From positions 744,001 through 808,000 of the forward strand of contig NZ_CP093397.1 of NCBI RefSeq assembly GCF_029027585.1: DNA of 64,000 bases, written 5' to 3'. Under the pieces are notes generated by a model. The model was not told the origin of the DNA, searched no databases, and saw nothing but the letters and a program-made list of their open reading frames with translations. Both the position numbers and the translations under genes were made by a program. This document shows, in pieces, positions 433-38,490 of the stretch. The DNA comes from Sulfurimonas sp. (GTDB taxonomy: Bacteria > Campylobacterota > Campylobacteria > Campylobacterales > Sulfurimonadaceae). The stretch's first letter is position 1, and each line of letters starts with the position of its first letter.

Positions 433-1617
433 TTATTTTTTGTATTTTATCCTAAGTGCTTTGTCTAATCGCTTAATCACTTCTAGCATCTGCGAAGTTG
501 ATACAGCAAAATTAAGCCTCATAAAACCACTTCCTTCTCTACCAAAACTCAGACCTGCATTTAAACCTAATTTGGCTTTTTGAGTAAAAAACTTTCTTAA
601 ATCTCTATCGGATAAGTTCATTCCACGACAATCTAACCATGCCAAATAAGTTGCTTCAATAGGAATCAGTTTTATTTTATCTTTGTATTTTTGACATAGT
701 TCATTTAAACTTTTGTAGTTTTTACCTAGATGCTCTACTAACTCATCTCGCCACTGAGAACCATCTTTATAAGCACTTTGAAATGCCACATGACTAAGAA
801 CACTTCCCTGTGCAAAATGCACACGATTATAACTTTGTGTAAATTTTTCTCTTAACTTTTTGTTTGTAATCGCAACACTACTCATAGCAAAACCAGCCAT
901 ATTAAATGTTTTTCCAACACCAATGGCAGTTATAGTTATATCTCTTGCTTGTTTACTTATAGATGCAAAAGGTATATGTTTGTTTGGAGCATATACTAAG
1001 TCTGAGTGTATTTCATCACTAAAAACAACTATATTATTTTCTAAACAAATCTCTAAAATCTCTGTTAGTTCATCTCTTGACCACACTCTTCCAACAGGAT
1101 TATGAGGTGAGCATAAAAGCAGAAGTTTAGTATTGGCATCTACCTTTGATTTTAAATCATCTATATCAAAGGTGTATCTTCCATCGCTCATCTGTTTTAA
1201 AGGATTTATTAAAAGTTCTCTTTTATGTTCTTTTACACTATGAAAAAATGGCGGATAGATTGGAGTTTGCACGATAACCTTATCGCCAATTTCACTAAAA
1301 GCATCTATGGCAACACTCATAGATGCCACAACAGAATGAGAGTAAAGTAAATCTTCAAGCTCAAACTTTACCCCATGTTTCTCATCCATCCACTTTATTT
1401 GCACTTCAAATGCACTTGTGGGAACTTCTTCATAACCAACTATTGGATGCTTTAACCTCTGCTTAACTGCTTCAAGTACAAACTCTGGTGTATCAATATC
1501 CATATCTGCCACCCAAACAGGCAAGACCTCATCTGAACCAAATAATTTTTCTCTTAAAGTATATTTTTCTGCATTTGAATTTTCTCTAGATGCTGATGAA
1601 GTAAAATCATATTTCAT
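433..1617 (-). CDS. PatB/MalY-type PLP-dependent C-S lyase, candidate OvoB
   Basis: A fold-type I PLP enzyme of the MalY/PatB group, which cleave carbon-sulfur bonds of cystathionine-like substrates. Visible hallmarks are the Asp-Glu pair in FSDEIHSDL, the Schiff-base lysine in GVGKTFNMAG, and the C-terminal Arg in GFMRLNFA. I place the start at 1617 (MKYDFTSSASREN): it overlaps the ovoA stop as ATGA, whereas an in-frame ATG 12 bases upstream adds only MEKK. In ovothiol synthesis, a PLP sulfoxide lyase (OvoB) converts 5-histidylcysteine sulfoxide to 5-thiohistidine. The direct overlap with ovoA makes this gene the obvious OvoB candidate; that role is inferred from context, while the lyase family is seen in sequence. 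Confidence 0.82.
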   Translation of the reverse strand: MKYDFTSSASRENSNAEKYTLREKLFGSDEVLPVWVADMDIDTPEFVLEAVKQRLKHPIVGYEEVPTSAFEVQIKWMDEKHGVKFELEDLLYSHSVVASMSVAIDAFSEIGDKVIVQTPIYPPFFHSVKEHKRELLINPLKQMSDGRYTFDIDDLKSKVDANTKLLLLCSPHNPVGRVWSRDELTEILEICLENNIVVFSDEIHSDLVYAPNKHIPFASISKQARDITITAIGVGKTFNMAGFAMSSVAITNKKLREKFTQSYNRVHFAQGSVLSHVAFQSAYKDGSQWRDELVEHLGKNYKSLNELCQKYKDKIKLIPIEATYLAWLDCRGMNLSDRDLRKFFTQKAKLGLNAGLSFGREGSGFMRLNFAVSTSQMLEVIKRLDKALRIKYKK

Positions 1618-3713
1618 CTTTTTTTCCAAACACTGACTTCAGATATTGTATGTTGGTATTTTCTTTTAGTTTCTTTTATAACAAACTCCAAATCTTGTAA
1701 GTGAATAAGTTCAAACTTTTCTAAAAGTATCTCTTTTAAACTATCTAAGGTTTTAATGTTTTCACCATTAGCATCTATGTATCCTCCAAGCCAAAGCTCT
1801 TTTTTTGTAGAACTTTCTTGCCAAGTATATGGAGATGCTATGATTAAAATGCCATCATCATTTAATCTTTCATCAATACTATCTAAAAAAAGTCTTGGGT
1901 TATAAAGTCTATCTATAAGGTTTGTTGCCATTACCATGTCATAAGAGTTAAAATTAGATTTTAAATTACAAGCATCTCCTTGCCAAAATGAAACTTTTTG
2001 ACTTAGGTTTTCATATCCCAACTCTTTTATTGTAACTTTTTTATTTTCTACTAACTCGCCTTCTTGTTTTGTATGAAAAGCCACAAAACCTTTTTCTTTA
2101 AGCTTTGAGCCAACCTGAATAAAACGAACCGAAAAGTCAATCCCTTCAACCTTATCAAAACTCTTTGCAAGTTCAAACGAAGCTCGTCCTGTTGCACAAC
2201 CCAAATCTAATGCTTTCGTTTTTTTACCCGAAAATTTTGAAGCAATTTTTGCCATCTCAATAGCAAAATTCTTAACTCCAAAATACCCATCGCTGTATTG
2301 AAATTCACAATACTGAGATACAAGTTCATCACTTTCATATATATATTTTTCTTTATACTCTACACTATTTGAAATAACATACCTAAATCCAGAAAATTGA
2401 GGAAAATGTTTTCTAAAAGCATAACGGGAATGCTTCATTATTAAATTTCCACTACTAGCCCATGATGAGCCTAAGATAAGTGCGTGTTTACCATCAAAAG
2501 TAGGAATAGAAAAGTCATCATAAGCTTCATGAATTTCAAAGCCATCAAAGCCAAAGATTGGGGTACGACTCCACTGCCAAACATTTCCAACAACATCATA
2601 GATGCCATTAAAACTAAACTCATTTACAGGACAAGAACTACCATAATGATAAAAGTTTAAGTTTGCTCTACTCTCATGGAATTCTGGTAAATCTTGTAAA
2701 TTTGAACGATTATAAATTGCCATATATTCCGCTTCACTTGGAAGGGAATATGTAACATTATCTACTAAACTTTTATATCTACAAAAAGCATTTGCTTCTA
2801 GTGCATTTACCTCAACTGGAAAATTCATCGGCATCTGAATAACTTTACTCAAAGTTCTATATTTATAAACTCCATTTTCTTTTATCCAAAAAACTGGAAA
2901 TTTAACTTTTGAGCTTTTTAAAAACTCTAAACCTTCTTCATCCCAATACTCATCTTTTTCATAACCTTTTGCATCTACAAACTTCATATACTCTTCATTT
3001 GATACTAAAAACTTTGAAGTCTTAAACTCACCTACTTCTTCTTCATACTCTCCGTACTCATTATCCCAGCCATAAAGATTATGTGCCTTACTTTTACCTA
3101 GTTTTATCTGCTGGGCATCTATGTTTATCATCTCATTTATTGGTGCATCTGCGCTATGAGAACATTCACTAAAGCATTTAACTTCTTTTATACACTCTAG
3201 TGGCATCTGTCTATGAAGAACAAGTGAAGTTTCTATATGGATTCTTTCATGTTCTATGCCCATCAGTATTATCCACATATCACTATCTTGTTTTATAGGG
3301 AGAGTTAAAGGCATACTCATTATCAAATCATTTACAAGCTCTTTTATCTTGCATCTATACTCTCTAACCGCATCGACACTCGGCCAAGCATAGTTTTTAG
3401 CCTCTGTATCATCCCAAGCCATTTCATCAACGCCAACGGCAAATATTGCCTCAAAATCTGCATCTATTCTTTTGTTTATTATCTTCATATTTATTAGTTT
3501 ATTTACAAAAAAAGTTGCTGTATGTCCAAAATAAAATATCATAGGATGACGAGTTAGTTCTGACTTTTTATAAAACACATCATCATTTTTTAAGAGTTCA
3601 AATACTTTTTCGTAAAGATTACAAGTATTGTTAAAATACTCTTTAATTTCTTGTCGTTTTTTTTGTATGTCATTCCCATCTAGCGTTACTGGGTATCTAC
3701 TAAGATTATTCAA
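1614..3713 (-). CDS. ovoA: OvoA, 5-histidylcysteine sulfoxide synthase with fused N-methyltransferase
   Basis: Three domains are visible: an N-terminal DinB-like domain with the iron-binding HX3HXE motif (HERIHIE, near residues 155-161), a central FGE-sulfatase-like domain (PSEAEYMAIY, then GNVWQWS and SGFRY), and a C-terminal SAM methyltransferase (ALDLGCATGRAS). OvoA joins histidine and cysteine with O2 to form the sulfoxide, and the methyltransferase completes ovothiol A. I choose the TTG at 3713: AAAGGA lies six bases upstream and the family-typical stretch (YPVTLDGNDIQKKR) follows at once. A longer frame to 3785 would run into the divergent pgeF gene and its promoter. The product is about 699 aa, full length for an OvoA with the methyltransferase. 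Confidence 0.92.
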   Translation of the reverse strand: MNNLSRYPVTLDGNDIQKKRQEIKEYFNNTCNLYEKVFELLKNDDVFYKKSELTRHPMIFYFGHTATFFVNKLINMKIINKRIDADFEAIFAVGVDEMAWDDTEAKNYAWPSVDAVREYRCKIKELVNDLIMSMPLTLPIKQDSDMWIILMGIEHERIHIETSLVLHRQMPLECIKEVKCFSECSHSADAPINEMINIDAQQIKLGKSKAHNLYGWDNEYGEYEEEVGEFKTSKFLVSNEEYMKFVDAKGYEKDEYWDEEGLEFLKSSKVKFPVFWIKENGVYKYRTLSKVIQMPMNFPVEVNALEANAFCRYKSLVDNVTYSLPSEAEYMAIYNRSNLQDLPEFHESRANLNFYHYGSSCPVNEFSFNGIYDVVGNVWQWSRTPIFGFDGFEIHEAYDDFSIPTFDGKHALILGSSWASSGNLIMKHSRYAFRKHFPQFSGFRYVISNSVEYKEKYIYESDELVSQYCEFQYSDGYFGVKNFAIEMAKIASKFSGKKTKALDLGCATGRASFELAKSFDKVEGIDFSVRFIQVGSKLKEKGFVAFHTKQEGELVENKKVTIKELGYENLSQKVSFWQGDACNLKSNFNSYDMVMATNLIDRLYNPRLFLDSIDERLNDDGILIIASPYTWQESSTKKELWLGGYIDANGENIKTLDSLKEILLEKFELIHLQDLEFVIKETKRKYQHTISEVSVWKKR

Positions 3714-3730
3714 AAATATTCCTTTATATC

Positions 3731-3746
3731 TGCTATAATAATTATA
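3731..3746. promoter_or_regulatory. Overlapping divergent -10 boxes between ovoA and pgeF
   Basis: The 13-bp perfect palindrome TATAATAATTATA (3734-3746) supplies a -10 hexamer to both strands. On the plus strand it is preceded by TGC, giving the extended TGCTATAAT common in Campylobacterota, and it ends six bases before the pgeF ATG. On the minus strand TATAAT (3746-3741) would start transcription near 3734, giving ovoA a leader of about 20 nt holding AAAGGA. One polymerase could serve only one direction at a time. Confidence 0.6.
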
Positions 3747-4471
3747 TGCAATTCTATCATAGTAAAGTATTAAATAATGTATCAAATATCACACATGCTT
3801 TTACAACTAAAGTATCTGGCAATTTAGCCTTTCATGTAAATGACAATCCAAAAGTCGTGCAACTAAATCATACTGTCTTAGCTAAGAAATTAAATTACGA
3901 CAAGAAAACACTTATTCATATGAAACAAATTCACTCAAATATAGTACACCTTGTAGATGTAAAAGATAACTTCGACAACCCTCCAACTTGCGATGCTCTT
4001 ATAACAGATAAACTAAATACACCTTTAATGGTAATGGTTGCTGATTGTTCTCCTTTACTTTTTTTTGATACTAAAAAAAATATTATCGCTGTTGCTCATG
4101 CTGGGAGAGAAGGTACATTTAGTAATATTATTAAGAATGTAATCAACTCTTTTAAAGAAAATTATAATTCAAACGCTCAAGATATAATTGTGTCTATTGG
4201 AGCAAGTATAAAAAAATGCTGTTATGAAGTTGGAGATGAAATATATAAAGAATCTTGTGAACTAAACTTGAACTATGCCATAGAGAAAAAAGATAAAAAT
4301 TACTACTTAAATATTAGTAAAATCTTAAAAACTCAACTCCTAGATGCTGGGGTTAAAGAGCAAAATATTGAAATTTGTAATGAGTGCAGTTGTTGTGAAG
4401 ACAAAAAGTATTTTTCTTATAGAGCAGATAAAAAAAGTGGAAGGTTTTGTGGAGTTATCTTGCTAAAGTAA
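3746..4471 (+). CDS. pgeF: Peptidoglycan editing factor PgeF (YfiH/DUF152, laccase-domain)
   Basis: A 241-aa member of the YfiH family, which removes misincorporated residues from peptidoglycan precursors and has also been described as a purine nucleoside phosphorylase/polyphenol oxidase. Metal-site motifs are present: KQIHSN, VADCSPLLFFD and AVAHAGREG. The usual GWRGT segment reads GREGT here, so the tryptophan is absent. The start at 3746 is the only ATG before the conserved THAFTT segment, and its -10 box ends just six bases upstream, so the mRNA may be leaderless. The 3' end overlaps the convergent dxs gene by nine bases. Confidence 0.85.
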   Translation: MQFYHSKVLNNVSNITHAFTTKVSGNLAFHVNDNPKVVQLNHTVLAKKLNYDKKTLIHMKQIHSNIVHLVDVKDNFDNPPTCDALITDKLNTPLMVMVADCSPLLFFDTKKNIIAVAHAGREGTFSNIIKNVINSFKENYNSNAQDIIVSIGASIKKCCYEVGDEIYKESCELNLNYAIEKKDKNYYLNISKILKTQLLDAGVKEQNIEICNECSCCEDKKYFSYRADKKSGRFCGVILLK

Positions 4472-33417: not shown

Positions 33418-36012
33418 TTAACTTTTTTCCTTAGAATTTATCTCTATAAAAACAGGCTCAGAGAAGTTTGGAACATCATCATAAGAGAAAACTGCATAAT
33501 ATTTATGCATATCTTTATCTCCAAAATTATCATATGTATAATCATCCATTCCGCCATATAATTTCTGCCCATCATAAGCAGTACAAGGTACTTTAAAAGG
33601 GTTTTTCACAACAATAGCACCTTTATACCCATCATCATTTGGTAAATCCCATTTTAATTTTATTATATTACTTTCAATTGAATAAGTTAAATTTTCTACC
33701 TGTTGCGGAGGATTTCTTCTTTTTTTAATATACTTAATCACCAATGAAGGTCTTTTAACTCTTTTAGTATCCATAAATTTTACATCTTGGTTTTTCAAAA
33801 ATACTTGAGATGTAGCAGAGATAACAAAATATGCTTTTGCATTTTTAGAAACATTCTCCGCCATTTCATTAATTGCATATGTATCAAAGACAAATCGTTG
33901 AATTGGTTCAGATTTAACATCTAAAACACTTACATCGTAACCTATTCTCTCAATAATTTCTCTTTTTTGAATTTTCTCATATGTATTTACACCATCACTT
34001 GGAACAATCATCTCTATGTGAAAACGCAGAGTATTTTTAGAGTCTATTTTAATTGCTTCAATTTCTAAATATGCACTTGATATTATTGTATTATCCATTT
34101 CAGGCCATTGAGATAAATCAAACTCTAAGCAAGCATACTTTTTAAAACAATTTTCATCATAACCTGCTAACAATTTACTTTCTAATATTTTGTCATTAAT
34201 AGCTGTAAACTCTCTTGATGATTTTAGTTCAATTTTAGCTTCATCAACAGTATAAGATATGTCTAGTTTTGGTCTGTAAGTAAGACCTCCACTAAATTTA
34301 CCATACCCTATATCCCACTGCATTAACTGAGAAGCACGATCGATTGGAAGAGTAGATGGACCATCAAACCTAAAAAGAGCCTCTGAGCGTAAAAGAGATT
34401 TTTGCAAAACTCTTAATTCTTGCGATGCAAATGTATATGTTCTCCAGATGCCTTGTGACAACTGTGCAGAACCTGTTGGTCTATCTATATAACTTAATGA
34501 CTTAACATTTTTTATCTCATCAAAGCTACTTATATTATCAATTGTTCGCTCATCTATCTGTCCTACTCTCCACTCCCCAAAACTCTCTACCTGTACAGAA
34601 ACTCTATTCATCGGATAAAAAGAGATAGATGCACTAGTTATGATGGCATTTTTGGGTATGCTAGAGAGTGAAAATCCACAAACTCCAAAACATTCACCCT
34701 TACTCTCAGACACTCCAACAAACATAGAGTTATTTCCATAATGATCTGTATTTTTTTTTGTTTTTTCTCCAACATAGCCGACTTTGTCTGCTAATGGATA
34801 TAAAATTTTTGAAAACATATTTTCTGCTGGTTGTGTTCTAACACCTAAAATTTGAGCATATGGAGATTTGATAAATTTTGCTTTACAAACTGCTCTTACA
34901 TAATAATAATAATTTCTTGAAGATTTCAAATTTTTATCAATAAATGTTTTTAACTTTGTTGTACCAATCCTATTTGACACTTGAGAAAAACCTTTTTGTT
35001 TTTTTGAACGATATATTTCAAAGTAAACAGTTTCATCATCTGCATAATCCCAACTAAGTTCTACTTCTTTAAAAGTAATTTCACTTGCAACAAAATTTTC
35101 AACTCTAGGCAGAGCATTTTCTTTTTTATAATTTTTTGCTTCAGACAAGGCTATCATTAATGCAGGAAGATTTTCATCAATATTTTCACTCATATGTTCT
35201 TTATAATCACTAATGTTTCTTGTTCCGACTTCAACAACAAGACTAAGAGCACCTTGCGAATAATAAAACTCTCTACCACTTCCAGAAATAAGATGAACTG
35301 GAGGTTTTCCCATATGAATGCCATATTCACGACCAGACCTTTTTCTAATCTCTTCTGCCATATTACCTGCTAAAAGATTTAAATCAATAGCATCAATAGC
35401 ATCTTCGTGTATAAAGTTGTGTGCAGGAAAGAATACATTTCCTTGAGAATGATAATCTAGAGCTATAGTAATATTCTTATGCTCTATTACAAAATCTCTA
35501 AGTGCTGTTGTTTCAGGTTCACTAAAGGCAGATGGTCCAGAATAGACATTTGAACTCGTATCTTTATTTGGTGTAAAACCTACAGAAAAATTTCTATTTA
35601 AATCAACTCCAAAACTACCATCAGCATTTTTTCTTCTATTCTTTCTCCAAAATGAAAAATGATTTCTTGAATACTCAAATCCATCTGGATTTGCACAAGG
35701 AACCATATATAAAGTTGCTCTATCAAGAATTTCATTTAGTTGTGGGTCATAATCAATATGTTCTATTATATATTTAGCAAAACTTATACTTAACTCTATT
35801 CCTATCCATTCTCTTGCATGAACAGTTCCCGTAAAAAAAAGTGCTGGTTTATCTAAATGATTATCAACATTTTTTGTAACACTCACAGCTATTATCTCTC
35901 GGTCTTCCCATGTTGTACCAATTGTTCGAACTTGAAAAAGGTTTGGATTATTTTTTTGTGCATCCTTAAAAAATGCTACACACTCATCATATGAACTATA
36001 TTGTTCTCTCAA
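33418..36012 (-). CDS. Multidomain M14 zinc carboxypeptidase with C-terminal beta-sandwich/FnIII domains
   Basis: The N-terminal 300 residues are a carboxypeptidase A/T-type M14 domain with complete active site: zinc ligands H65 and E68 (HAREW) and H188 (DYHSQ), substrate residues N139-R140 (DLNRNF) and catalytic E261 (VVEVGT). After it come a fibronectin III-like domain (about 302-395), two long beta-rich regions of unknown family (about 400-585 and 590-770) and a second FnIII-like domain at the end. The start is TTG at 36012 with AGGA seven bases upstream. There is no signal peptide, which is odd for a protein with FnIII domains, so it may be cytoplasmic or exported by another route. It is the last gene of a trio with an ATP-grasp ligase and an M20 peptidase. 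Confidence 0.88.
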   Translation of the reverse strand: MREQYSSYDECVAFFKDAQKNNPNLFQVRTIGTTWEDREIIAVSVTKNVDNHLDKPALFFTGTVHAREWIGIELSISFAKYIIEHIDYDPQLNEILDRATLYMVPCANPDGFEYSRNHFSFWRKNRRKNADGSFGVDLNRNFSVGFTPNKDTSSNVYSGPSAFSEPETTALRDFVIEHKNITIALDYHSQGNVFFPAHNFIHEDAIDAIDLNLLAGNMAEEIRKRSGREYGIHMGKPPVHLISGSGREFYYSQGALSLVVEVGTRNISDYKEHMSENIDENLPALMIALSEAKNYKKENALPRVENFVASEITFKEVELSWDYADDETVYFEIYRSKKQKGFSQVSNRIGTTKLKTFIDKNLKSSRNYYYYVRAVCKAKFIKSPYAQILGVRTQPAENMFSKILYPLADKVGYVGEKTKKNTDHYGNNSMFVGVSESKGECFGVCGFSLSSIPKNAIITSASISFYPMNRVSVQVESFGEWRVGQIDERTIDNISSFDEIKNVKSLSYIDRPTGSAQLSQGIWRTYTFASQELRVLQKSLLRSEALFRFDGPSTLPIDRASQLMQWDIGYGKFSGGLTYRPKLDISYTVDEAKIELKSSREFTAINDKILESKLLAGYDENCFKKYACLEFDLSQWPEMDNTIISSAYLEIEAIKIDSKNTLRFHIEMIVPSDGVNTYEKIQKREIIERIGYDVSVLDVKSEPIQRFVFDTYAINEMAENVSKNAKAYFVISATSQVFLKNQDVKFMDTKRVKRPSLVIKYIKKRRNPPQQVENLTYSIESNIIKLKWDLPNDDGYKGAIVVKNPFKVPCTAYDGQKLYGGMDDYTYDNFGDKDMHKYYAVFSYDDVPNFSEPVFIEINSKEKS

Positions 36013-36027
36013 ATTGTTATCCTAAAA

Positions 36028-36936
36028 TTATTTATTTTTCTTTGTTTTTTTATCTATTAAATCTACTATTAAATCTATTTTTTTATTATTAAAATCTAAG
36101 CCCATTTTTTCTTGTTCTGGTGTTGCAAATGCTGGTATGCCATTTACTTCTAAAACTATATACTCTTCTTTTTCCAAATCATATATTATATCAACTCCAC
36201 CAATATCTACATCACATGCCGCACAAGCTTTTATAGCTATATTTTTAATCTCTTCATTTGCTTCTCTCATAAATACAGAACCACCAGCAGTTACATTTGT
36301 TCGCCAGTCAGTTCCATTTGCTTTTCTACCATAACAAGATACAAATTTACCATCTACAATATCAACTCTAAAATCAGTATTATCATATTTTATAAATTTT
36401 TCTACATAAAAATATCTTAAATCCATTTGATTTAAAAAAGGCATTAACATATCTAAGTTTGCTTCACTTTCTATTTTTGTCAAACCTACTCCACCCCAAC
36501 CATCAGTAGGTTTATAAACCATTTTATCCCATTTTTTGATAATTTTTTTTAAGTGATGTCCATCATCTCTATGGCATAATTTATAATCTGCTGTTTGAAT
36601 TCCTGCCTTTCTCAAAATAAATGAAGTATGAAATTTATCCTCAGTTAACGCGAAAGAATCGTAAGAGTTAATAGTAGAAATGACCCGGTTTAAAGCTTGG
36701 TATAAATACATTTGATACTGCGTTTGTTCACCAGCATTATAAGAGAAAAAAAGATTAAGTTTATCTAGTTTTATATCATTATGTAAAATATGTCCATTTT
36801 TAGCGATTGCATGTCTTAAGTTAATATCACCGATAGTATCTATATCTCTATCTTTTAACTTTTTTACAATTTTTTTAGTGATTTTATCACCACCACCATT
36901 ACTATAAAGCCACATTCCAATTTTTCTATTACTCAT
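36028..36936 (-). CDS. RimK-like ATP-grasp ligase
   Basis: ATP-grasp ligases of this type form amide or peptide bonds through acyl phosphates. In the 302-aa protein the ATP-binding lysine is in KMVYKPTDGWGGVG (the glycine loop), the adenine/ribose region is YFYVEKFI, and the Mg-binding end motif is YIVLEVNGIPAF (E..N.). The N-terminal part (1-90) lacks a recognised domain and contains the SNGGGDK segment. The ATG directly follows the M20 stop (TAGATG) with AAAGGGG upstream, so expression is coupled. Substrate unknown; peptide or amino-acid ligation is inferred from family and from being flanked by two peptidases. Confidence 0.82.
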   Translation of the reverse strand: MSNRKIGMWLYSNGGGDKITKKIVKKLKDRDIDTIGDINLRHAIAKNGHILHNDIKLDKLNLFFSYNAGEQTQYQMYLYQALNRVISTINSYDSFALTEDKFHTSFILRKAGIQTADYKLCHRDDGHHLKKIIKKWDKMVYKPTDGWGGVGLTKIESEANLDMLMPFLNQMDLRYFYVEKFIKYDNTDFRVDIVDGKFVSCYGRKANGTDWRTNVTAGGSVFMREANEEIKNIAIKACAACDVDIGGVDIIYDLEKEEYIVLEVNGIPAFATPEQEKMGLDFNNKKIDLIVDLIDKKTKKNK

Positions 36937-38049
36937 CTATGCCCCTTTAAAATCTGAATTTTTTATAAAATAGATAAAAAGCTTTTCACTTAAGGATATC
37001 CTAGATTCAAAACTTTTTTTATTTGCTCTCTCTTTTAGAGTATGATCACCATCGCCAAATGGTCCAAAACCATCAAGAGTAATAACTCCACATGAACTTA
37101 CAATATTTGCATCACTTACTCCACCCCTCTCTTCATGTTTAAGTGTAGTATTTGTAATGTTTTTTATGTTTTTTATTAACTCCAAAGATTCTTGTGATGT
37201 TTGCATTACATCTCTTTGAATGCCACCACTTAGAGTAGATATAGTTCCTTTTACAAATGATGTTTGAACTATTTTATCAATCTCTTTTAAAACTCTTTGT
37301 TTTTCATCTAAAAGTTTATATCTTAGCTCAAAAACTAAATTTGCATGAGGAGAAATAGTATTTGCTCCTATGCCTCCTTCTATCTTACCAACATTTACCG
37401 TTGTTCCTTTTTCTAAATTAGTAAGTTTTACTAAGTTTTGAAGTTTATAAGTGGCTTCTAAATTTGCATCATGCCCATCTATATAATGATTTCCAGCGTG
37501 AGCAGCTTTGCCTTGTATATCAATAAAAAAAGTTCCAACACCTTTTCTAGCAGTTACTACTTCCATATTTTTACCTGCTGCTTCATATACAAAACAATAA
37601 TCGTATTTTTTAGCCAATGTTGCTGTTAAATATTTTGAATCATCACTTCCTGTTTCTTCATCGCTTACAAATAAAACATCTATATTTTTTATATCTATTT
37701 TTTTTTTATTTAAATTGCGAAGAGCCTGAAGAACTACAATATTTCCACCTTTCATATCACAAACTCCTGGTCCATAAATCCACTCTTTATCTTCAGAATA
37801 ATCTTCAAATTTATTTGGAGGAAATACGGTGTCTAAATGCCCAAGAAGAAGTAATTTTTTTGAGTTTTTATCGCAGGCAGAAATATAATGTCTATGATTA
37901 CCTATGGAACCTCTATTGTGAATATTTAGTTCAAAACCTAAATCTTTAAACCATTCATCAAATATTTCACCAACTTTATCCACACCAGTTTTATTTTTTG
38001 TATAAGAATTCATATTGATTATTGTTTTTAAATCATTTAAGTAGTTCAT
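36937..38049 (-). CDS. M20-family metallopeptidase (glutamate carboxypeptidase-like)
   Basis: A 370-aa binuclear zinc aminoacylase/carboxypeptidase. Motifs: LLLLGHLDTVFP (first metal His and Asp), GPGVCDMKGG (bridging Asp), FVSDEETGS (catalytic Glu-Glu), the lid-domain AGNHY, and GDGDHTLKERA with the final His. The pattern resembles CPG2/ArgE-type enzymes that release amino acids from N-acylated or gamma-linked substrates. No signal peptide. First gene of the trio; TACAAT seven bases before the ATG is a possible -10, giving an almost leaderless message. Confidence 0.87.
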   Translation of the reverse strand: MNYLNDLKTIINMNSYTKNKTGVDKVGEIFDEWFKDLGFELNIHNRGSIGNHRHYISACDKNSKKLLLLGHLDTVFPPNKFEDYSEDKEWIYGPGVCDMKGGNIVVLQALRNLNKKKIDIKNIDVLFVSDEETGSDDSKYLTATLAKKYDYCFVYEAAGKNMEVVTARKGVGTFFIDIQGKAAHAGNHYIDGHDANLEATYKLQNLVKLTNLEKGTTVNVGKIEGGIGANTISPHANLVFELRYKLLDEKQRVLKEIDKIVQTSFVKGTISTLSGGIQRDVMQTSQESLELIKNIKNITNTTLKHEERGGVSDANIVSSCGVITLDGFGPFGDGDHTLKERANKKSFESRISLSEKLFIYFIKNSDFKGA

Positions 38050-38119: not shown

Positions 38120-38147
38120 AACTTAGAAGATTATTTTCTTCTAAGTT
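38120..38147 (-). terminator. Hairpin over the rplS stop codon
   Basis: Perfect 11-bp arms AACTTAGAAGA and TCTTCTAAGTT flank a six-base loop that contains the rplS stop. On the minus strand only a short T-stretch follows, so as an intrinsic terminator it is weak; it may protect the 3' end of the ribosomal-protein mRNA. Confidence 0.4.
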
Positions 38148-38490
38148 CTTTAATACGAGCTTTTTTACCTGCAAGATCACGAAGATAAAATAGTTTAGCA
38201 CGACGAACACGACCGCGACGAATAACTTTTATCTCATTGATTGAATCAGAGTAGATTGGGAAAATTCTTTCAATTCCAATACCATTAGCACCAATTTTAC
38301 GCACTGTTATAGTTTTTCCAGTACCTTGACCTCTTTTTGCAATACAAACGCCTTCGTAGCTTTGCACACGAGATTTATCACCCTCTTTAATAGTTACTGC
38401 CAAACGAACAGTATCACCAGCACGAAATTGGGGAAGTGTTTTCTCAGCTACTTGTGCTTTTTCAAAGTTTTCTATATATTTATTTCTCAT
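38131..38490 (-). CDS. rplS: Ribosomal protein bL19
   Basis: bL19 sits at the 30S-50S interface. The 119-aa protein shows the expected [42 protein letters not shown] and the basic end [20 protein letters not shown]. Its start overlaps the trmD stop by four bases, the standard arrangement of the rpsP operon. No anomalies. Confidence 0.97.

Follow-up and report, generated by a model that had tools for sequence, protein, structure and literature searches.

Within a 64,000-nucleotide stretch of a Sulfurimonas sp. genome (NZ_CP093397.1, positions 744,001 to 808,000; G000:C1:744001-808000 in our own numbering, and referred to here as the window), a minus-strand operon encodes an M20 metallopeptidase, a RimK-like ATP-grasp amide ligase that we call G1, and a multidomain M14 zinc carboxypeptidase. 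Together with a second RimK-fold protein, G2, which lies elsewhere in the same single-contig genome of 2.6 Mb, this trio may form one functional module that writes and erases acidic residues on an intracellular acceptor, a proposal to which we give about even chances. A first-pass annotation of the operon had already suggested that residues are added and removed in a cycle. The idea is consistent with the enzyme families, and the acidic specificity now predicted for M14 makes it more precise, but the annotation overlooked the second ligase: the real unit comprises two ligases and two peptidases. The three genes in the window, as given by open reading frame (ORF) calls, are as follows.

36937 to 38049, minus strand: M20 metallopeptidase, predicted first eraser; 370 amino acids; Pfam PF01546/PF07687.
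36028 to 36936, minus strand: G1, RimK-like ATP-grasp amide ligase, predicted first writer; 302 amino acids; Pfam RimK.
33418 to 36012, minus strand: M14 zinc carboxypeptidase, predicted second eraser; 864 amino acids, with a TTG start at 36012; Pfam PF00246.

The coordinates bear out the tight same-strand arrangement described in the first-pass annotation, with M20 and G1 abutting (0 bases) and 15 bases separating G1 from M14. The trio is preceded by rplS (38131-38490) and followed by an rRNA operon, a stable spot common to close relatives. In most relatives, inspection of the 20-kb surroundings places the second RimK-fold ATP-grasp protein, G2 (440-520 amino acids), between G1 and M14. The genome of the window has its G2 gene outside both operon and window instead, at G000:C1:110850-112268, 90 bases after efp.

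A survey of 249 Campylobacterota genomes found G1 in 22, M14 in 22 plus one remnant, intact G2 in 22 and orthologous M20 in 23. All four genes were present in 21 of the 249, with G2 and M14 co-occurring in 22/22; the corresponding Fisher P values (1e-27 to 1e-32) take no account of relatedness and serve as description only. The exceptions are G105, where M20 and G1 lie at the end of a contig; G218, with G2 and M14 only; and G061, with a lone M20. The neighbourhood is kept across 13 genera and at many chromosomal sites. The check proposed at first pass, namely whether the neighbours are conserved together in other genomes, thus came out positive for 21/22 genomes and, in addition, for a replicon of Photobacterium. 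The latter, from the gammaproteobacterium Photobacterium sp. DA100, carries the four-gene cassette in the same order, with 4-base overlaps at G1/G2 and G2/M14; a search of plasmids found the whole cassette in Photobacterium only. Beyond the four genes, the Photobacterium and Campylobacterota cassettes share no other neighbours, nor did we find any further conserved neighbour, partner or precursor gene among ORFs of 60 amino acids or more, the trmD/rimM/rplS synteny being restricted to one clade.

A scan of GTDB species with G1 yielded 353 loci, of which 80 were kept. All 80 belong to Campylobacterota (Sulfurimonas, Sulfurovum, Arcobacter and relatives). Many have the order M20-G1-G2-M14, with M20 in line or divergent; others show M20-G1-M14, and five have an extra G1-like ligase. 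In these five Sulfurimonas loci (L120, L122, L128, L135 and L137), G1 is followed in the operon by one more RimK-like ligase, the third, which shares 57-60% identity with it and has an intact metal motif. At one further locus, a 189-amino-acid ORF between G1 and G2 (L130 7875-8444) resembles, by eye, a Uma2/DUF820-like endonuclease.

The two unlinked parts of the module have also been lost together. In one genome of the window's genus, G037, the M14 gene beside rplS is reduced to roughly its final 37 codons (L098 10069-10191), and stop codons interrupt G2 beside efp (L111 9030-9490); trio locus and unlinked G2 locus have decayed jointly, marking a recent loss of the module. Three genus members that carry the trio (G000, G009 and G129) lack G2 in the operon and have it elsewhere. 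A maximum-likelihood analysis of 72 G2 proteins groups these unlinked copies in a clade of 17 (support 100/99) that is distinct from the in-operon G2 proteins of Sulfurimonas. Since the unlinked G2 is kept alongside the trio and comes from another clade, the copy once in the operon has probably been lost and a G2 of other origin has taken its place, although ancient paralogy may be an alternative source. The best reading of the cassette's distribution is that of a horizontally mobile module. As to a phage source, which we discarded, viral contigs held no homologues, and the phage matches were only distant M14 domains.

The predicted chemistry of the module is most specific for the M14 enzyme. 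It matches Pfam PF00246 with 187.7 bits (cut-off 21.6) and, with zinc ligands and catalytic Glu present, belongs to family M14; its nearest Protein Data Bank (PDB) chains are carboxypeptidases A4 (CPA4) and B. Two features bear on catalysis and specificity.

35128 to 36012, minus strand: M14 catalytic domain, residues 1-295; Pfam match 12-264, with a HMMER alignment to CPA4.
35272 to 35274, minus strand: codon of Arg247, equivalent to carboxypeptidase A position 255, the S1' specificity residue; SGSGRE against SGSSID of CPA4.

Alignment of homologues agrees with the earlier statement that the catalytic motifs of the trio are complete: of 61 M14 homologues, 57 have every one of the motifs HAREW, FWRKNRR, DLNRNF, DYHSQGN and EVG, and each of the others lacks a single one. 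The one departure is the residue aligned to carboxypeptidase A Tyr248, which varies. The position equivalent to 255 is Arg in 60 and Lys in one of the 61 homologues, and Thr or Ile in control M14 proteins from Sinorhizobium meliloti and Streptomyces. In vertebrate M14 enzymes, Arg255 confers acidic specificity, such that an Arg255 enzyme cleaved FA-Glu-Glu and left FA-Phe-Phe intact (PMC9925722). By this rule, the basic residue predicts that M14 is acid-specific and removes C-terminal Glu or Asp. The enzyme shares Arg255 within an M14 catalytic domain with human carboxypeptidase O and the cytosolic deglutamylases (PMC9925722), but differs from them in being bacterial and ligase-linked, in lacking a signal or pro-peptide, in carrying two fibronectin type III (Fn3) and two more beta-sandwich domains, and in not keeping the Tyr248 equivalent. 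The absence of a signal peptide, noted at first pass, holds on inspection: the catalytic domain begins at about residue 3 in all 17 aligned homologues, none of which has a signal or pro-peptide.

The other eraser candidate is a member of family M20, matching Peptidase_M20 (PF01546) with 71.8 bits (cut-off 24.6) and M20_dimer (PF07687) with 54.4. Its motifs GHxDTVF, CDMKGG, SDEExGSD, EAAG and DHT are kept in 70 of 71 homologues, and residues H71, D73, D98, E131, E132, E156 and H336 are invariant among 18 (the HMMER alignment seems off by one around a conserved Arg). The best PDB match is 1cg2, carboxypeptidase G2 (CPG2; E 1e-22, about 84 bits), with which it shares the metal ligands and from which it differs in its low score, the lack of a signal peptide and its place in a ligase operon.

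G1 matches Pfam RimK with 73.2 bits (cut-off 21), and its metal motif EVNGIP is kept in 84 of 86 ATP-grasp homologues. The nearest NCBIfam model is that of the tetrahydromethanopterin glutamate ligase MptN (NF040720; 144 bits, below the cut-off of 350), while rimK_fam (TIGR00768, RimK family alpha-L-glutamate ligase) gives 133.6 bits, slightly below its cut-off of 143.4. The nearest PDB structures are ArgX and RimK, with LysX also close. G2 is likewise RimK-like (Pfam RimK, 50 bits): an AlphaFold model of a close G2 (mean predicted local distance difference test score, pLDDT, 74) aligns best with RimK (Z 20.6) and ArgX (Z 20.5). It ends in a helix-hairpin-helix (HhH) region, which matches HHH_3 with 94.6 bits in one homologue and HHH_5 with 28.1 in the window's genome. 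Its core is strongly conserved except that LECATAF takes the place of the EVN motif, with Ala replacing the metal-binding Asn, in the 46 of 53 sequences in which the motif is readable.

Taken together, these predictions outline a possible cycle. G1 and G2 would spend ATP to join single amino acids to carboxyl groups of the acceptor, whether this is a protein, a small molecule or an elongating chain. The ligated residues would most likely be Glu or Asp, given Arg255 of M14, the resemblance of M20 to a glutamate carboxypeptidase (CPG2) and that of the ligases to MptN, RimK and ArgX, all of which use acidic amino acids. M14 would then trim acidic C-terminal residues from the acceptor and the CPG2-like M20 would hydrolyse the remaining amide-linked residue, such that the cell could install a short acidic tail or peptide, reset it and salvage it. 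Such a cycle supposes a single acceptor common to writers and erasers, and a modification that would be reversible in vivo. Partial co-occurrence in G218, together with gene adjacency, suggests that G1 pairs with M20 and G2 with M14.

Several points weigh against this write-and-erase cycle. All of its activities are predictions, and the likeness of M20 to CPG2 is, from its sequence, at family level only (191.9 bits with the CPG2 model PRK06133, below the cut-off of 349). RimK-fold ligases also take other substrates: LysX uses 2-aminoadipate, and D-Ala ligases have the same fold. With Ala in its metal motif, G2 may work differently or be no ligase at all. Five loci have G1 and G2 with no M14 downstream and, since G218 has G2 and M14 without G1 or M20, the unit may really consist of two ligase-peptidase pairs that can be separated. 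Finally, specificity in M14 enzymes is also set by positions other than 255 (PMC9925722).

Of the other readings, a possible though doubtful one has as its product a small acidic oligopeptide in free form, made and salvaged by the module and serving as osmolyte, antioxidant or metal ligand, with an amino acid or metabolite as acceptor. The cassette stands on its own, without a conserved precursor or carrier gene beside it, and keeps its gene order on the Photobacterium replicon; judging by record titles, its holders mostly seem marine or vent-derived. The third ligase paralogue in five vent Sulfurimonas loci would be expected if chain length or composition varied, and ligase-plus-peptidase operons for an osmolyte do exist (N-acetylglutaminylglutamine amide, NAGGN). 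Against this stand the size of M14, whose 864 amino acids and four accessory beta-sandwich domains are much for a dipeptide, the lack of any conserved transporter, and a score of 31.6 bits with the NAGGN synthetase model (TIGR03103), whose cut-off is 569.

A bolder version of the write-and-erase cycle would make the module a hitherto undescribed bacterial counterpart of eukaryotic (poly)glutamylation, in which the ligases mark a specific intracellular protein, the HhH tail of G2 recruits it to nucleic acid or nucleoprotein, M14 erases the mark much like tubulin deglutamylases, and the cassette moves between phyla; we regard this as unlikely.

The accessory part of M14 bears on a further alternative. 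A model of residues 296-864 (pLDDT 88) resolves four domains.

34807 to 35127, minus strand: first Fn3, residues ~296-402; Pfam fn3 22.6 bits, slightly below cut-off.
34255 to 34806, minus strand: beta-sandwich like a carbohydrate-binding module (CBM), residues ~403-586; by structure alignment and NCBIfam.
33709 to 34254, minus strand: second beta-sandwich, residues ~587-768; boundaries and secondary structure solely from the model, mean pLDDT 88.
33421 to 33708, minus strand: C-terminal Fn3-like domain, residues ~769-864; from the model, and the sole part of M14 surviving in the decayed G037 locus.

Residues 3-103 of the model (m3867b99e7519), corresponding to the first Fn3, match Fn3 structures with Z about 13. 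In VIA-align, the CBM-like domain resembles the chondroitin-sulfate CBM 8wab (Z 18.1, 171 aligned residues, root-mean-square deviation 2.9) and the alginate CBM 7vbo (Z 15.4); NCBIfam DNRLRE scores 33.9 bits, against a cut-off of 34. Modules of the carbohydrate-binding type usually work extracellularly, and CBM-like modules in an M14 enzyme without an export signal are unusual. As seen in the model, the likeness of the middle domain to polyanion-binding modules indicates a shared fold only and is no proof of polymer binding.

With these domains in mind, a module for a poly-amino-acid chain can be envisaged, such as poly-glutamate or a mixed acidic copolymer, which G1 and G2 would build, M14 would depolymerise from the C-terminus while its CBM-like domains hold the polyanion, and M20 would finish by splitting the last dipeptides. 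RimK itself produces poly-alpha-glutamate (PMC12239564, PMC11957791), and the M14 middle domain, most similar to modules for the polyanions chondroitin sulfate and alginate, is joined here to a predicted acid-specific carboxypeptidase. Yet such modules are common, a fold match does not amount to binding, and the HhH tail of G2 is left unexplained; we regard this reading as quite unlikely.

The homology of both ligases to RimK raises the question of whether the module modifies ribosomal protein S6, which we consider very improbable. Like RimK/RimB, the cassette combines a RimK-fold ligase with a peptidase that removes acidic residues, and is accessory, patchy and horizontally spread (RimK/RimB according to PMC11957791). 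It differs in having two or three ligases, and in that its erasers are zinc carboxypeptidases (M14, M20) rather than the aspartic RimB. Moreover, the RimB family PF05618 is distributed differently from the module, being absent from the window's genome and seven other holders (8/11 holders in all) and present in 2/3 non-holders, and the C-terminal tails of S6 vary without visibly separating 10 genomes with the module from 10 without it. The Rlo system, comprising the retropepsin-like peptidase RloA, the inactive transglutaminase RloB and the ATP-grasp protein RloC (PMC12239564), is also an ATP-grasp and peptidase operon, but our cassette is without a transmembrane or periplasmic component and its peptidases are unrelated. 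The cassette is thus similar in outline to RimK/RimB and Rlo without being a member of either: the window's genome has no RimB, the peptidases are unrelated, and the S6 tails do not discriminate.

Still less probable is an amino-group-carrier system of the kind known from lysine and arginine biosynthesis (LysX/ArgX-LysW-LysK). The parallel is a RimK-family ligase with an M20 hydrolase: ArgX and LysX are among the structures nearest to G1 and G2, and LysK is an M20 enzyme. The missing carrier speaks against it, with no LysW match (PF21344) above cut-off in 14 genomes while 4 control genomes were positive; M20 is not of LysK type (51.7 bits with that model, cut-off 163), and M14 is extra. That unrelated housekeeping enzymes adjoin by chance, as the window copy's stable place between rplS and the rRNA operon might suggest, has a negligible probability: the genes keep together in 13 genera at many different chromosomal sites, the cassette is also present outside the phylum, and two unlinked loci have decayed jointly.

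Among the systems compared, we found no characterised pathway that matches the genes; such a match is what the first-pass annotation had named as counting against its proposal. The GAK system ATP-grasp model TIGR04356 gives 52.6 bits (cut-off 300). As for a precursor peptide gene of the kind found in graspetide clusters, a comparison of ORFs of 60 amino acids or more showed no family conserved nearby apart from the four genes. Anti-phage defence was dropped, the four proteins having no PADLOC match at E 0.01. We found no description of the four-gene set in the open literature searched; the 2009 amidoligase survey (PMC3268129) was not covered and may mention it.

If the write-and-erase cycle is correct, the cassette enlarges the small group of RimK-type systems, whose biology is just emerging, by a module in which two writers work with two erasers of unrelated kind. 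It is found in many marine sulfur-oxidising bacteria, is common in Campylobacterota of vents and redox zones, and occurs also in Photobacterium, whose copy may offer a more tractable host for finding the acceptor. Arg or Lys at position 255 gives an immediate biochemical prediction.

Two observations concern the surroundings of these genes. First, module genes directly follow efp in two settings: the unlinked G2 in the window's genus (L108 9048-11132, L109 8836-10918, L110 8820-10840) and M20-G1-G2 in L184 (4587-8875). As efp appears in only 2 of the scanned neighbourhoods around the operon, too few to tell apart from chance, a link to elongation factor P was rejected and the proximity treated as chance. 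Second, elsewhere in the window, a minus-strand ORF at 1614-3785 looks by eye like a methyltransferase fusion of an OvoA-type 5-histidylcysteine sulfoxide synthase, and is followed on the same strand by a pyridoxal phosphate-dependent C-S lyase-like enzyme (433-1629, likewise by eye); judged by their sequences, the two (433-3785, minus strand) are probably an ovothiol pathway pair.

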